The position numbers and the translations under genes are program-made. Below are positions 2,782 through 40,551 of a stretch of 64,000 bases of DNA, piece by piece. The notes under the pieces were generated by a model. It saw nothing but the letters and a program-made list of their open reading frames with translations, made no database searches and was not told the DNA's origin. Position 1 is the stretch's first letter, and every line of letters begins with the position of its first letter. Source of the DNA: an uncultured Actinomycetes bacterium (GTDB lineage: Bacteria > Actinomycetota > Actinomycetes > Nanopelagicales > Nanopelagicaceae); NCBI GenBank assembly GCA_903838295.1, contig CAILXX010000001.1:62001-126000 (forward strand). The letters are read 5' to 3'.

Positions 2782-3576
2782 TTAAGACAAGAACTCCCGA
2801 CTTGTCCTGATGAGAAGATCGCGCATTGCGTCCTGGTCGAATGAGAGGCCTGAAAAAAGTGAAATTTGGTCAAGTGCTTGCTCGACTAATAGATCGAAAC
2901 CATCAATAGTCCGAGCCCCTATAGATTGTGCTTGGGCAAGGAATTTTGTCGGATATGGCTTATAGAGAACTTCACAAACTGTCATATCGGCAGAAGTTAA
3001 TCTGCTCGCAAGATGATCACCTGCTCCCGCCGGAACCGTGGAAATGATCAGATCATAATCGTCTAATGAATGATTCATATCGTAGAAATTAAGCGAGCTT
3101 GTGATAGCGACCTGACGTAAAACATCTGCACGGCTTGGCGTCTGTAAGAGAAAATCAATCTGCTCCGATAGTCCATCTAATGCGCCAAGTGCCGCCCTAG
3201 CGGTTCCGCCACCACCAATGATTGCGACTCGTTCCTTTTTAACGCCATTGAAGAGCCTCATGAAGCCTGTTCTATCTGTCGATACCGCGAAATAATTATC
3301 ATCTTGCAGAACCAAGGTATTAGCCGAACGCATCCGGCTAGCAACCGGATCGATCAGAAAACCAGAATTGAAAATGCATTCTTTCAAAGGCATTGTTAGC
3401 GAAAAACCAGTCCATCTTTCCCGCAATGCATTTTTGAAAAAATCATCTGCATCAGCCGGAAGCAATTCGATGGCTTCATACGATGCAGGGAGTCCTAAGA
3501 ATTCATAGGCCTTCTTGTGCAGAAGTGGAGAGAGGCTATGGGCTATTGGAGAACCAAGAACCGCAGCCTTAATCAT
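2782..3576 (-). CDS. aroE: Shikimate dehydrogenase
   Basis: NADPH-dependent reduction of 3-dehydroshikimate to shikimate. 264 residues. The N-terminal substrate domain has GSPIAHSLSPLLHKKAY (the shikimate-binding serines) and LTMPLKE with the catalytic lysine near 66. The nucleotide-binding loop is AIIGGGGTARAALGAL near 118-133. Its ATG overlaps the mltG stop by 4 nt. It belongs to the run alaS-ruvX-mltG-aroE. Confidence 0.94.
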   Translation of the reverse strand: MIKAAVLGSPIAHSLSPLLHKKAYEFLGLPASYEAIELLPADADDFFKNALRERWTGFSLTMPLKECIFNSGFLIDPVASRMRSANTLVLQDDNYFAVSTDRTGFMRLFNGVKKERVAIIGGGGTARAALGALDGLSEQIDFLLQTPSRADVLRQVAITSSLNFYDMNHSLDDYDLIISTVPAGAGDHLASRLTSADMTVCEVLYKPYPTKFLAQAQSIGARTIDGFDLLVEQALDQISLFSGLSFDQDAMRDLLIRTSREFLS

Positions 3577-32382: not shown

Positions 32383-32457
32383 GGACGATTGGCTCAGCGG
32401 TAGAGCACCACATTGACATTGTGGGGGTCACTGGTTCGATCCCAGTATCGTCCACCA
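32383..32457 (+). tRNA. tRNA-Val (GAC)
   Basis: 75 nt including the encoded CCA (32455-32457). Acceptor GGACGAT pairs with ATCGTCC. The anticodon stem CCACA/TGTGG encloses TTGACAT, giving anticodon GAC. The T arm contains GGTTCGATCCC. Its 3' 44 nt (32417-32460) recur imperfectly at 33637-33680, the pattern left by an element that integrated at a tRNA gene. Confidence 0.96.
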
Positions 32458-32510
32458 GAACTACCTAGAACTACCTAGAACTACCTAGAACTACCTAGAA
32501 CTACCTAGAA
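32457..32510. repeat. Perfect 10-bp tandem repeat, about 5.4 copies
   Basis: CTACCTAGAA is repeated five times without mismatch (32461-32510), preceded by a partial AGAA that is the end of the tRNA-Val region. There are no spacers, so this is not a CRISPR. It occupies the tRNA 3' trailer, in front of the convergent DUF3054 gene. Each unit holds a CTAG tetramer. Confidence 0.95.
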
Positions 32511-32525
32511 CAATCTTGGTACAGA

Positions 32526-32870
32526 CTAATTCGAGACGCGATTGAAGATTATTCGCCAGCCCACGAGCAAAAAAGTAAGTAATAGTGAGGCTACAATTAC
32601 AAAGCTCAGCGCAATTCCCTGGCCAGAGATCACGCGCAGAATCATGCCGACTGCGACCACGAAAATAACCAGGTAAAAACCACAATTACGAGCAATGAAA
32701 TTGCGATGCGTCAGCGTGAGGTAGGCCCAACCGAAGAGTAACCCAACGCCAAAAGGCCAGAACGTTGAGGCGATCCCTTTCAAAGTAATCCCGTGATCAT
32801 GATTGTGTCGACCGATCACAACAAAGATCAGCACGATCAAGAAATCGAAAAGGGTTGCAATTTTTTTCAC
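32526..32870 (-). CDS. DUF3054 membrane protein
   Basis: 114 residues with four predicted membrane segments. It has IGRHNHDHG after the first helix, TFWPFGVGLLFGWAYL in the second, and the family hallmark MILRVISGQGIALSFVIVA near 76-94. DUF3054 proteins are widespread in actinobacteria; function unknown. It lies inside the interval bounded by tRNA-Val and the duplicated tRNA 3' end. Confidence 0.85.
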   Translation of the reverse strand: MKKIATLFDFLIVLIFVVIGRHNHDHGITLKGIASTFWPFGVGLLFGWAYLTLTHRNFIARNCGFYLVIFVVAVGMILRVISGQGIALSFVIVASLLLTFLLVGWRIIFNRVSN

Positions 32871-32898
32871 AATAATCTCTCCAATCTCCTTGAGAAAA

Positions 32899-33351
32899 TT
32901 AGACTAAGAATTCTGAAAGTTGGATTTTCCCCATATTGCGAAGGATTCCCCAGTTCTTCTCCGCTTTATCTGGATCCGGGTTGCTCAGATAATCACGCAT
33001 CTGCATCGGAGTTATCTGCCAGCTCACTCCCCATTTATCGGTGCACCAACCGCAACGGCCAGCCTCACCTTCGGCTGTGATGGCGGCCCAAAGGCGATCA
33101 GTCTCTTCTTGACCATCACATTGAACAGAGAGCGATATTGCAGAATTAAAAGCTGGCCCGCCCTCAATCGACATGCCAATGAATTCATGGCCAAAGATTG
33201 TGAAATCTGCAGTGAATAGGGGTGCTCCCTCTCCCATTCGGTTTTCTTCCCGCAAGACAACATCCTTGAATGTTGCCTTATAGAAATCGAGGGCTTCCTC
33301 AAGGTCCTTGTTGAACCAGAGAAATGTCTTTAACGAGTGCGAGGTATCCAT
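32899..33351 (-). CDS. VOC-fold protein, PhnB/3-demethylubiquinone methyltransferase-like
   Basis: 150 residues, a complete PhnB-like vicinal-oxygen-chelate protein. It has FLWFNKDLEEALDFYKATFKD near 10-30, FTIFGHEFIGMSIEGGPAF, and the C-terminal CGWCTDKWGVSWQITP followed by NWGILRNMGKI. Despite the database family name it is not expected to be a methyltransferase. Ligand unknown. Inside the tRNA-Val-bounded interval, 28 nt from the DUF3054 gene. Confidence 0.88.
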   Translation of the reverse strand: MDTSHSLKTFLWFNKDLEEALDFYKATFKDVVLREENRMGEGAPLFTADFTIFGHEFIGMSIEGGPAFNSAISLSVQCDGQEETDRLWAAITAEGEAGRCGWCTDKWGVSWQITPMQMRDYLSNPDPDKAEKNWGILRNMGKIQLSEFLV

Positions 33352-33360
33352 CTCTAGAAC

Positions 33361-33637
33361 TTAACTATTCGATTCGATGAAGGCAAGTGATTGCGCAAAA
33401 ATTTCTGATGTGTCGTAGTCCAACGGCGAAAGGTGAAAACTATCACTCAGTTCTACTCGTCTTTTTTTTACTCGATCTGATTTCGGTCATGACGTTCTCG
33501 GTATTCGTAACAGGCAGAACATGGTCATCGGTTGAATGGAAGAGCAACAACGGTGCTTTGACGTTTTTTTTCAGAGCGGCTCGCGTAGCCTTCAATAATT
33601 TGTTGAGTTCAAGAACTCTCTTGGTAGGGAGAACGTC
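33361..33637 (-). pseudogene. C-terminal remnant of an alpha/beta-hydrolase (carboxylesterase)
   Basis: Read on the minus strand from 33637, the sequence gives DVLPTKRVLELNKLLKAT, then FHSTDDHVLPVTNTE, matching the last third of the intact esterase at 39023-39781 (DVLPTKGVIQLNKMLKET and FHSVDDHVLPVSNTE). At a run of eight A (rc of about 33463-33470) the frame shifts. The final part VELSDSFHLSPLDYDTSE matches IELTNSYHVATLDNEAP in another frame, up to a TAA at 33361. The N-terminal two thirds are missing; homology stops exactly at the tRNA-Val fragment. It is too diverged from the intact copy to be a recent local duplication. Confidence 0.85.
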
Positions 33638-33680
33638 ACTGTGGGCGTCACTGGTTCGACCCCAGTATCGTCCACCAGAA
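33637..33680 (+). repeat. Duplicated 3' end of tRNA-Val (att-like direct repeat)
   Basis: 44 nt matching tRNA-Val positions 32417-32460 with 3 mismatches, covering part of the anticodon stem, the variable loop, T arm, 3' acceptor strand, CCA and AGAA. Same orientation, 1220 bp away. It cannot form a tRNA. This is the usual footprint of an integrated or rearranged element that used a tRNA gene as attachment site. No integrase gene remains between the copies. Confidence 0.85.
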
Positions 33681-33718: not shown

Positions 33719-36031
33719 TCACGCATCTTTGAGGAAGATTGGAATCTCAACATCAGGGCGTAAGTGACCTTCGTGCGCCCGAAGCGCTGCTTGGTGATAG
33801 AGCTCGATCCGTTCGATATTCGCTGCTTCTTGATATGGCCGTCCATCAACAAGTGGCCCAACCGTACCGCTCATCACCGCTATCACATCTTCACCAGAAA
33901 TCGTTTTGTGAACTTCTAACGCATGCGCAAGTGACAAAACTTTGCTGCGATTCTCCACCAAAATCTCCTCGGCTTTAATGAGCAACCCCCCAAGATTATT
34001 TTCTATACGATCGCTCAACATGCCTTTCGCAAGTTTGCTCTCATCACCTTGTGGCTTGCCACCTCCTGGCGCTCCTACTTCAAGACGACGATTCGAAGCA
34101 TGAGAACTGACCGTGGAGCCCATTCCCCAATGTCCCTCCATGAAGCTCGCAATTGTTGTAGCGCTCTCTAAATCACCCGAGACGCCAGAGGAATTATCGC
34201 CGCTGAAAAATAATCTTTCTCCCGCTAATGATGCGAGTGATACCAAAATGTCAGATTCGTATTCACTCCGCCAACGCGTAAACTGATCATCTGGCGGAAT
34301 TGATGCGACCATCCCCAAATAGTTGGAACCTTTTTCTATCGTTGCTAAATCAATGGCCATATGGTGGCGAACCAAATGCGCCATCACTGCATGACAGGCT
34401 TCATGGACCGCGACCGCGTGTCTTTCGCGCTCGATATATTCAACGTCTTCAGCGGGCCCTAACTCTTTAAGCTGCTTAGCCTTAATTACATCCGCAAAGG
34501 TGATTGCTGTCCTGCCCTGTCGTATTGCCAAGATTAAAGATTCGTTGATCGTATCTTTGATGATCGCTCCAGTTGCATACGGAGTTATTACTGCCAACTT
34601 ATCGATTTCCTCGTCCGAAAGGTTGTTGGAAACTTTTGCCAAATACCCCTGGTACGTACGCACGCGTCCAGCCTTGCTTGGATAACCCACGCGATACATT
34701 CGGTCAATACGACCAGGACGTAACAACGCCTCATCTAGTGCTTCCGGGAGGTTTGTAGCCATCACAACCAAGATACGGTACTTCGGTGGATTCTTAGGTC
34801 GCAAGCCTAAGGTGCGTCGAATAATACGATTGAAAAATCCGCGTGGTTTCTTCAAGCCAGAGAGTTCTGTGAGCAGCGCCTGCAACGTACCTTGGCCGCC
34901 ACCGCCACCAGACATAGCAGTATTCGCAACAAAATCTTCCTGCTGACGTCCCATCGCTTGTCGAAGCATTGCTTGTCGAACCACTAACGAAGCAGAGCTA
35001 GGACTGAGAAAATTCGCGCCATTACACGAATGCGATAAGAATGGCGATTGTGTCGCATATGCGCCTTGCCCGCCACCAACCGAGGCTCCTCGATTACCTA
35101 GAGAGTCAGCCTCGTCGAAAAATACAACAACACCGCCATATCGCAAAGCAAGTTTGCGTAACTTTCTAAAGAGTGACTTAACTTTCAATACGCCAACTCC
35201 AAAAAACATCGCGTTAAAAGCGCCTGGATCAACAAAGACGAATGGCTTACCGGTTTCTCCTGCCATCGATTCCGCCATCAAGGTCTTACCCGTTCCAGGA
35301 GGACCCCACAATAAAATTCCACCGGGCACATAACCGCCGTGCTTCTCTATCTCCTCTGGTGACTCTAGAAATAATAAATTCTCGCGGATCCGATTGAGCA
35401 CATGATCTTGACCCCAAACGTCACTAAAACGAGTACGGATGTCATCAGGAAAATAGGTATCAATTCCTCCCCTGCTTAAGAACCAGAACATGGCTCCAAA
35501 CTGGATGATGACGAAAAAGATGCCGAAGGCTAACTGACCCAGTAGTGGTAAAGATGACCAGAGTGCCTTCGGGGCCATAAATAGAGCCGTTACAGGAGTT
35601 TCTTTGTAAATGGCTCCCAAAATCACCGCAAGGAGCGAGATCAATAAAAGATATTTAATTAACCGCGAAATCCTGAATCGGTTCCAGTCTCCAATACGGT
35701 GAATTTGCTTATCGACGAATGAAAAATATCGAACCCAAACCCCGTGGTACGGCGCCAATGTTTCAGCTAGCCCGAAGTGAATTTGCCGCAATCCCTCTAT
35801 GCCGACCAACACCAGCAACCACCAACGTGACTGTACTTGGTTGGTGAATGCGTCATGAAAATTCAAAATCGGATCATTGGCCATCGATGCCCAAATCAAA
35901 ACCAGATAGACAAGACCGAAGAGCAAGAAGAATTTTGTGCGATCAAATAATGATAGATGGACACGAGTCAACCGATCGCTATCACGCAATCGACTCTGTT
36001 GTTGTGTTGAATTAGCTGATTCTATGCTCAT
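33719..36031 (-). CDS. Atypical FtsH-like membrane AAA zinc metalloprotease
   Basis: 770 residues. Four hydrophobic segments occupy about 33-200 (canonical FtsH has two). AAA module: Walker A GPPGTGKTLMAESMAG near 241-256, Walker B VVVFFDEADSLG near 300, and second region of homology ATNLPEALDEALLRPGRIDR. An unusual insertion of about 80 residues separates Walker B from the latter (Gly/Ser/Gln-rich, with AMSGGGGGQGTLQALLTELSG). The M41 site is HEACHAVMAH, with SGDLESAT as the likely third zinc-ligand region. Probably a divergent quality-control protease. A lipoprotein gene overlaps its start by 4 nt. Confidence 0.85.
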   Translation of the reverse strand: MSIESANSTQQQSRLRDSDRLTRVHLSLFDRTKFFLLFGLVYLVLIWASMANDPILNFHDAFTNQVQSRWWLLVLVGIEGLRQIHFGLAETLAPYHGVWVRYFSFVDKQIHRIGDWNRFRISRLIKYLLLISLLAVILGAIYKETPVTALFMAPKALWSSLPLLGQLAFGIFFVIIQFGAMFWFLSRGGIDTYFPDDIRTRFSDVWGQDHVLNRIRENLLFLESPEEIEKHGGYVPGGILLWGPPGTGKTLMAESMAGETGKPFVFVDPGAFNAMFFGVGVLKVKSLFRKLRKLALRYGGVVVFFDEADSLGNRGASVGGGQGAYATQSPFLSHSCNGANFLSPSSASLVVRQAMLRQAMGRQQEDFVANTAMSGGGGGQGTLQALLTELSGLKKPRGFFNRIIRRTLGLRPKNPPKYRILVVMATNLPEALDEALLRPGRIDRMYRVGYPSKAGRVRTYQGYLAKVSNNLSDEEIDKLAVITPYATGAIIKDTINESLILAIRQGRTAITFADVIKAKQLKELGPAEDVEYIERERHAVAVHEACHAVMAHLVRHHMAIDLATIEKGSNYLGMVASIPPDDQFTRWRSEYESDILVSLASLAGERLFFSGDNSSGVSGDLESATTIASFMEGHWGMGSTVSSHASNRRLEVGAPGGGKPQGDESKLAKGMLSDRIENNLGGLLIKAEEILVENRSKVLSLAHALEVHKTISGEDVIAVMSGTVGPLVDGRPYQEAANIERIELYHQAALRAHEGHLRPDVEIPIFLKDA

Positions 36032-36687
36032 CTATTTGGGCCCTTATCTGTGAAGGAAGCAACAATTTTTTCGATGACTGGGAGATTCTTTGTATAACAA
36101 TCCGTCGTACAGCGAATCACAAAGAGAATAAGGGATCGATGATCATTAGATAGCAAACCGATCTGGTTCACTGTTTGGCTGATTCCATAATTCGTGAAAT
36201 TAAATACTGCGTGAACTCCACGTGCGCCTTTTTGAACCAACTCTTCATCAGTTTTTACACCAAACACTGGAATCGATGTAGCACTTCCATCTTCCCATCC
36301 TGAGAGCGGAACGATCAGATCTCGTAAATAGTTGTATGAGACTTGTTGAATTTCGGTAGCGCTCAGCGCTCGTACCCGCGCATAGACGATCGGCGAATTA
36401 GGCGCTTGGAAATTCAAAACTCGTGCCGCACTCACCTTCGCTTCACCACTGTAAGCAATCTGCCATTGCACTCGGGCAAGTCGATCAGCTGCTCCCGCTT
36501 GCGTCGATAAGGCCTCTTCAGCGGCAAGCTCCTTAGTTGTGATCAGATGCCAAGAATTGGGAACCGCAAAATAAACACCATCCTTGGTGTCGATTGCATA
36601 GTTCTGTGAAGGTTTTCCACAACTCGTCAATACAAGTGTGCTGATAGCGACAATCGCTACCAAGGCAGTTGATTGACGAAATTTCAT
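36028..36687 (-). CDS. Lipoprotein coupled to the FtsH-like protease
   Basis: 219 residues. The signal peptide ends in the lipobox LTSC-GK, lipidated Cys near 23. The mature domain has GVYFAVPNSWHLITTKEL near 38-55 and ends ...KIVASFTDKG, a layout resembling PsbP/LpqN-type extracytoplasmic domains, a weak fold-level guess. The stop overlaps the protease ATG by 4 nt, so the two are cotranslated and may form a functional pair, such as a protease with an external regulator. Confidence 0.7.
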   Translation of the reverse strand: MKFRQSTALVAIVAISTLVLTSCGKPSQNYAIDTKDGVYFAVPNSWHLITTKELAAEEALSTQAGAADRLARVQWQIAYSGEAKVSAARVLNFQAPNSPIVYARVRALSATEIQQVSYNYLRDLIVPLSGWEDGSATSIPVFGVKTDEELVQKGARGVHAVFNFTNYGISQTVNQIGLLSNDHRSLILFVIRCTTDCYTKNLPVIEKIVASFTDKGPNR

Positions 36688-39022: not shown

Positions 39023-39781
39023 CTAGCTGTATTGCTGTACATGCGCCAGAGAATTTGCAAAAACCAACGGCGCCTCATTATCTAGTGTTGCAACGTGATA
39101 GCTATTGGTTAGTTCAATTCGCTGCTTAGCGTCGCTTTCTATCTCCGCCATAATTATCTCAGTGTTGGACACCGGCAATACGTGATCATCAACGCTATGA
39201 AACAAAAGGGTTGGACAGGTGACTTTGCCAAGATTCTTGCGGGTTTCTTTCAACATTTTATTGAGCTGAATGACACCTTTGGTTGGCAAGACGTCATAAC
39301 CCCATTCGGTGATATTTGGCTTCTTAATGTCATCCCCAACAGATGCTCTCCCTGGTTGAATCAAAGCGACTAATGGCGCAATTTTTATCAACGCTCCAGG
39401 TATGTGAATCATTGGATTAACCAGGCAAATTCCATCCAGAATATTATTTTCCGCAATATTCAAGGTGGTTCCACCGCCCATGGATAGACCAAAGACGAAA
39501 ACTTTCTCGCAAATTTTCCGCATCCGATCAAGATCGACTTGTACTCGAGCCGGCCACTCTTGCCACTTCACGCGATTTAAATCCTGCCACTGCGTTGCGT
39601 GACCCGGCAGGCGTGGTACAGATACTGTGTAACCGCGCTCCTGAAAGTAGTCAGCCCATGGACGCATAGAGGCAGGCGATCCCGTAAAACCATGAACAAA
39701 GATGACTCCCACATTTTTATTAGTGGAGCCCTCGGCAAAGTAGTCCAAGAGCCAGCCAGTAGGTGCGTTTGTTGTAGCCAT
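39023..39781 (-). CDS. Alpha/beta-hydrolase, carboxylesterase/monoacylglycerol lipase type
   Basis: 252 residues. Oxyanion region VHGFTGSPASMRPWADYF is near 29-46, the nucleophile elbow FGLSMGGGTTL near 97-107, the acid in SVDDHVLPVSNTE near 196-208, and the histidine in TNSYHVATLD near 227-236. Resembles Est30-like esterases. A decayed paralogue of its last third is present at 33361-33637. Confidence 0.9.
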   Translation of the reverse strand: MATTNAPTGWLLDYFAEGSTNKNVGVIFVHGFTGSPASMRPWADYFQERGYTVSVPRLPGHATQWQDLNRVKWQEWPARVQVDLDRMRKICEKVFVFGLSMGGGTTLNIAENNILDGICLVNPMIHIPGALIKIAPLVALIQPGRASVGDDIKKPNITEWGYDVLPTKGVIQLNKMLKETRKNLGKVTCPTLLFHSVDDHVLPVSNTEIIMAEIESDAKQRIELTNSYHVATLDNEAPLVFANSLAHVQQYS

Positions 39782-39813
39782 AAGAACAATGTAGGCCTCT
39801 ATTGGCGCTCAGT

Positions 39814-39833
39814 CCAGATGGGCCCAGATGGGT
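39814..39833. repeat. 10-bp tandem duplication, 2 copies
   Basis: CCAGATGGGC then CCAGATGGGT, one mismatch, in the short divergent region between the esterase and the exonuclease genes. Confidence 0.6.
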
Positions 39834-39894
39834 TCAACCAATTGGTCAAGATTCCTATCCTATGTCGGCGGTTCTGCGTATCCTTAAGATCTAT

Positions 39895-40551
39895 ATGGAC
39901 CCTATGAGCCCCGTTACACCTATTACACCTATTACCCATATTGCTTTGCAACAAACAACTTTTGTCGTGGTAGATCTTGAAACCACTGGTGGAAGTCCAC
40001 ACGCTGGCGCCGTCATCACTGAAATTGGAGCTGTAAAAATAAGAGGCGGAGAAGTAATTTCTGAGTTCAAATCTTTCGTCAATCCCCTGGCGCCGATCCC
40101 TATTTACATCACAGAATTGACTGGTATCGATGATGAGATGGTTCGATTAGCGCCGATCATTGATGAAGTCTTTCCTACCTTTCTAGAATTTTGTGGCCCC
40201 GCAACAGAAACTGTGCTTGTCGCACATAATGCACCATTCGATATTGGCTTTCTCAAGGCAGCGAGTAAAGAACTCGAGTACAACTGGCCGGATTTTAGGG
40301 TCGTAGACACCGTTCGACTAGCCCGAATGGTTCTTAGCCGAGATGAAGTTTTAGATTGCAAATTGGGAACTCTTGCAGCCTTCTTCAACACTCAGGTAAC
40401 ACCCACTCATCGCGCGTTGGACGATGCCCAGACCACGGTCGAAGTTTTGCATGCACTCTTCGAAAGACTTGGTGGCTACGGTATCTATAGTTTTGCAGAA
40501 CTCGAGACCTTCCTGAAAAAAAGGATCAAGCGCGAACCTAGGCTTATCTGA
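39895..40551 (+). CDS. DEDDh 3'-5' exonuclease (DNA polymerase III epsilon-like)
   Basis: About 218 residues from the ATG at 39895; the frame is open from 39802 and an ATG at 39904 is possible. Exo I is FVVVDLETTGGSPHAGAVITEIGAVK, Exo II VAHNAPFDIGFL, Exo III THRALDDAQTTVEVL, so all DEDDh acids and the His are present. The N-terminus includes a 9-bp in-frame tandem repeat (39913-39939) encoding VTP-ITP-ITH. Proofreading subunit or standalone repair exonuclease; the polymerase gene is elsewhere. It overlaps convergent trpD by 8 nt. Confidence 0.88.
   Translation: MDPMSPVTPITPITHIALQQTTFVVVDLETTGGSPHAGAVITEIGAVKIRGGEVISEFKSFVNPLAPIPIYITELTGIDDEMVRLAPIIDEVFPTFLEFCGPATETVLVAHNAPFDIGFLKAASKELEYNWPDFRVVDTVRLARMVLSRDEVLDCKLGTLAAFFNTQVTPTHRALDDAQTTVEVLHALFERLGGYGIYSFAELETFLKKRIKREPRLI

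Follow-up and report, generated by a model that had tools for sequence, protein, structure and literature searches.

A horizontally imported gene block between tRNA-Val(GAC) and a copy of its 3' half in a streamlined freshwater actinobacterium

tRNA-bounded cassettes in streamlined aquatic bacteria

Temperate phages that use a tRNA gene as their attB can take with them the chromosomal genes beside the att site, which then move with the element (specialised transduction). The locus described here, in the genome designated G000, resembles this case in that two phages of its relatives, L138 and L140, use tRNA-Val; it differs in that G000 holds no phage gene, and a phage may only be presumed to have carried its genes. 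In the marine Ca. Actinomarinales, tRNA genes carry small inserted cassettes that close with a repeated piece of the tRNA, and a prophage in tRNA-Val is reported as well (PMC7771536). These additive flexible islands share with the G000 locus a streamlined aquatic actinobacterial host, a cassette at a tRNA and a repeated tRNA part; the G000 cassette differs in ending in a truncated gene and in having a traceable source, the DNA resident beside tRNA-Val in another species. In Methylophilaceae, repeats of the last 20 nt of tRNA-Lys accompany an additive island (PMC10872708). There too a variable tract is marked by tRNA-end repeats, in a freshwater bacterium that is streamlined as well, but both tRNA and host are different, and G000 has one 44-nt copy. 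Tycheposons, described in Prochlorococcus (cited in PMC10872708), are likewise tRNA-bounded cargo islands of streamlined plankton; a tyrosine recombinase is characteristic of them, whereas the G000 site has none.

To this known kind of tRNA cassette the G000 locus adds a new instance. It has the features of a cassette of an additive flexible genomic island: variable genes beside a tRNA, and a tRNA-end repeat at the cassette edge. It is not a tycheposon: no tyrosine recombinase with cargo is found at the G000 tRNA-Val. What is new is the identification of a donor type, together with the tRNA-Val phages and islands of the family; a paper on tRNA-Val islands in this Nanopelagicaceae-type family was not found in the literature.

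The repeat and the segment that it bounds

The window, the whole 64,000-nt stretch of DNA that was analysed, is C1:62001-126000 of G000. Its relevant features, in window coordinates, are these:

32383-32457, + strand: tRNA-Val(GAC), intact (ARAGORN); left boundary, attB/attL-like
32458-32516, + strand: about 5.5 tandem copies of the 10-bp unit AGAACTACCT, immediately behind the tRNA
32526-32870, - strand: DUF3054 gene (PF11255, E 2e-19), G003-type, 75% amino acid identity, fourfold-site identity 55%
32899-33351, - strand: VOC-superfamily gene (PF06983, E 1e-30), G003-type, 96% amino acid identity, fourfold-site identity 63%
~33364-33637, - strand: esterase pseudogene (est'), G003-type, cut at the repeat
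33637-33680, + strand: repeat of the tRNA-Val 3' half (41/44), which bounds the foreign block on the right; no element arm sites upstream
39023-39781, - strand: intact esterase (alpha/beta hydrolase, PF12146), homologue of est', in the genus-typical position
39802-40551, + strand: exonuclease gene (PF00929), conserved; anchors on the right the variable tract beginning at tRNA-Val

The repeat is real. Its two copies, 32417-32460 and 33637-33680, are in direct orientation and agree at 41 of 44 positions; the best other match to the 44-mer in the window is 26/44, the maximum in 50 shuffles is 28/44, and the whole 1.46 Mb genome holds these two copies alone. What is left of est' is the C-terminal third (residues ~163-252) of a 252-amino acid hydrolase, with one frameshift. 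There is no integrase (PF00589) in the window, the three matches in the genome lying at C1:6192, C17:68899 and C17:117558.

Comparison with a relative, G003, bears on the origin of the segment. The tRNA-Val genes of the two genomes are identical (75/75), and the order in G003 is tRNA-Val, DUF3054, VOC, full esterase. Across VOC and est' the two align at ~90% nucleotide identity, and the similarity to the intact G003 esterase ends after GGAGAACGTCA, where the G000 sequence goes on with CTGTGGG: this break, at ~33637, is the start of the repeat. Identity at fourfold sites between G000 and G003 is 55% in DUF3054, 63% in VOC and 75% in est', in contrast to 8-41%, which is saturation, in every flanking gene measured. 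In the trees of VOC and DUF3054, G000 and G003 come out as a pair (support 87/85 and 91/97); the thrS tree places G003 with G011, G017, G028 and G015 (100/99), apart from G000. VOC and esterase genes also adjoin each other near the exonuclease anchor in both G003 and G028, and because of this, and because the block follows tRNA-Val in G003, the DUF3054-VOC-esterase genes are resident there, ordinary chromosomal neighbours of tRNA-Val. On these sequence comparisons, the 1.2 kb between the repeats is evidently foreign to G000, having come from a relative of G003, another freshwater actinobacterial species, and the right edge of the foreign block is evidently the repeat. A donor closer than G003 and an intermediate stage of G000 itself were looked for and not found; the junction of est' with the repeat recurs in no other family genome among the matches listed.

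Much of this anatomy had been read from the letters alone: a 44-nt repeat of the tRNA 3' end with three mismatches, enclosing the array, the DUF3054 and VOC genes and a truncated esterase whose homology stops exactly at the repeat, and no integrase. The identity count and genome search, the Pfam matches, the esterase alignment with G003, and the count of zero PF00589 matches in the window uphold that description throughout.

tRNA-Val(GAC) is an attachment site in related genomes

Between tRNA-Val and the exonuclease gene (39802 in G000), gene content varies across the genus. Contigs end within 100 nt of the tRNA in 7 of 23 genomes, mostly drafts assembled from metagenomes, versus 0.56 expected (P ~6e-7 if ends fall randomly, the test presuming uniform placement of contig ends). 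Pattern scans found at least 119 matching stretches in public genomes (Ca. Planktophila, Nanopelagicaceae and similar) and viral contigs, and the neighbours of tRNA-Val in relatives include prophage and integrase. Phage L140 has terminase and portal genes and, beside a tyrosine integrase, an attP formed by the tRNA 3' half, the 5' half being absent; L138, a near-identical phage (integrase 98% identical), starts at a complete tRNA-Val. In G224 (L171) tRNA-Val is followed closely by an integrase, and the island, 6.1 kb long, ends in 24 nt copied from the tRNA 3' end; G225 (L192) and G160 (L252) also have an integrase beside tRNA-Val. Seven attR-type half copies (G004, G024, L179, L211, L217, L246, G238) start at tRNA nt 29-31, in the anticodon stem/loop, and most have arm motifs in common upstream: 11-bp repeats with CCTAACA, then ACGCKTAAWTA, then ACACGC. 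In these Nanopelagicaceae-type freshwater actinobacteria, tRNA-Val(GAC) is an attachment site of phages and islands. The sequence-only reading had proposed looking in relatives for an integrase-bearing island at this site, and here such islands are.

The repeat in G000 departs from this pattern at its edge. Its similarity to the tRNA begins in the anticodon loop, at tRNA nt 35-38 as against the canonical nt 29-31, which puts its start 4-8 nt inside the canonical attR edge; none of the relatives' arm motifs lies upstream of it, and esterase sequence directly precedes it. Its closest parallel is L179, in which tRNA, two small genes, a truncated LysE gene, arm sequence, attR and an intact LysE gene follow one another: a truncated gene and its intact homologue at a real attR, with the arm sequence kept.

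Like an integrated element, then, the G000 locus has an intact tRNA at one end and a repeat of its 3' part at the other, an interior evidently foreign to the host lineage, and integrase-bearing elements at the same site in relatives. It has neither an integrase inside nor a canonical attR edge with arm sites, and for these two reasons it is classed as an insertion scar rather than an element. The attL/attR geometry first proposed for it accordingly stands as to the repeats, the foreign interior and the use of the site in relatives, and falls short as to the integrase, the attR edge and the arms. Nor is it classed as a product of specialised transduction: G000 has no phage sequence at the locus, the VOC gene was found on no viral contig, and L179 keeps arm-like sequence only.

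Several other observations concern the same site. The 10-bp array of G000 finds no support as a set of integrase arm sites: the relatives' 11-bp repeats differ from it in sequence and are mostly found 40-117 nt away from the tRNA. In G003 and others the tRNA is followed by its own end in short tandem copies; in L146, L161 and L239, 35-bp tandem units that combine the final 8 nt of tRNA-Val with GTAACG..GTGGCG stand directly after the tRNA, and a repeat similar to them follows it in G003 (L155). What looked like a second tRNA copy serving as attR in G002 is a hairpin with perfect pairing that incorporates the tRNA end, TTGGTGGACGA-TCCCAGTG-TCGTCCACCAA (L071:440-475, G002:C5), ~1.8 kb downstream of tRNA-Val and perhaps a terminator. 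A second, CAC-type tRNA-Val in G020 (L127) was set aside as evidence, the integrase-like ORF after it being only 29 amino acids long. Among the matches listed, two tRNA-Val(GAC) copies with genes between them occur in G229:C16 (L188/L292) and G233:C8 (L325), ~2.0 and 6.7 kb apart; both copies are complete in G229 and apparently so in G233. L217 (JAURGA010000005.1) has an extra 30-nt partial copy of tRNA-Val on the minus strand at 3188-3217, ~0.86 kb from its attR copy, which suggests repeated insertions. The viral contigs L136, L137 and L141 carry a tRNA-Val(GAC) gene of their own among 3 to 38 tRNA genes.

How the block may have arrived

The most likely explanation, to which we give a probability of about 0.5, is that an element brought the G003-type flank into tRNA-Val and that the body of the element was later lost. 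A tRNA-Val-specific element in the donor would have picked up the flank beside its att site (DUF3054, VOC and part of the esterase), as happens in specialised transduction or imprecise excision, and element and flank would then have recombined with the recipient's tRNA-Val. The incoming 3' half would have completed a working tRNA gene and displaced that of the recipient to the other side of the insert, where it would now be the decaying repeat at 33637. A later deletion would have removed the element body between the broken esterase and the repeat, trimming a few bases off the latter. The transfer, the order of these events and the deletion are what we infer: because no phage gene, integrase or arm sequence is left at the G000 locus, the element itself can only be surmised. 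It is L179, with its truncated gene and intact homologue at a real attR with arms, that lets G000 be read most naturally as a case of element-borne transfer with a subsequent deletion.

The right junction is the less comfortable part of this scheme. The donor esterase has no att- or core-like sequence at its breakpoint (best match 7/19, against a background of 4.7 +/- 1.9), so the junction looks illegitimate. The locus is also not simply an island with its middle deleted, because its interior is the donor's chromosomal flank and its repeat lacks an element arm; of the earlier suggestion that most of an element had been deleted, the possible loss of an element body survives, and the view of the interior as the remnant of an integrase island does not.

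The main rival, somewhat unlikely in our estimate, dispenses with any element or site-specific enzyme. Linear G003-like DNA would have recombined with the recipient through homology in the identical tRNA gene, and its other end would have been joined illegitimately within the recipient's anticodon loop, doubling the 3' half; homology-anchored illegitimate recombination of this sort is known from several bacteria (PMC3240628). The identity of the two tRNA genes over all 75 positions suits such an event, as do the lack of an att-like site in the donor esterase and a right junction with only 2-4 bp of microhomology (CA / GNCA). Yet homology-anchored illegitimate events usually delete recipient DNA, and doubling half of the anchor requires a circle or a sister chromosome; L179, moreover, has this layout and still retains element-arm sequence. 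The evidence leaves the choice between element-borne transfer and tRNA-anchored illegitimate recombination undecided.

A site-specific integrase might instead have joined a secondary site in the esterase to tRNA-Val, the block moving as a small circle that called for no later deletion. The junction does lie inside the anticodon loop, the region in which the relatives' attR copies begin, but the esterase breakpoint is unlike a core site and the overlap matches at only ~3/7, which makes this improbable. An old local tandem duplication of the tRNA 3' end around resident genes, the alternative that the sequence-only reading had held against itself, could appeal to the short tandem copies behind the tRNA in G003 and others and to the two full tRNA-Val copies with genes between them in G229 and, apparently, G233 (among the matches listed); it is contradicted by the fourfold-site contrast, since the interior is horizontally acquired and donor homology ends at the repeat, and its chances are very small. 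An artefact of assembly or binning that joined two species' DNA at the tRNA, where contigs of draft relatives often end (the 7 of 23 above), is just as hard to credit in a 253 kb contig whose repeat differs from the tRNA at three sites, whose block is ~10% diverged from G003 and whose esterase is decayed.

A broader proposition goes beyond element-borne import into G000: tRNA-Val elements of streamlined freshwater actinobacteria may repeatedly ferry resident genes between the tRNA-Val sites of different species and then vanish, leaving a truncated gene and half a tRNA. We consider it doubtful as a generality. Were it to hold, species could exchange genes through tRNA-Val and keep no genes of a mobile element as a trace. 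The variable tract at tRNA-Val across Nanopelagicaceae, for which phages, integrases and arm sequences are identified, can be taken as the history of a single heavily used attachment site. It illustrates how a streamlined genome can acquire its neighbours' genes although no mobile element is visible at the site, and the signature to search for elsewhere is simple: a gene cut short, half a tRNA and, farther along, the gene's intact homologue.

Beside tRNA-Val, G000 also has (window 33719-36687) genes for an FtsH-like AAA/M41 protease and an adjoining lipoprotein-like protein of 219 amino acids. The place between window 7683 and 8011, ~25 kb leftward, is empty of this pair in G000; 11 relatives have the pair between the counterparts of the genes at those two positions.
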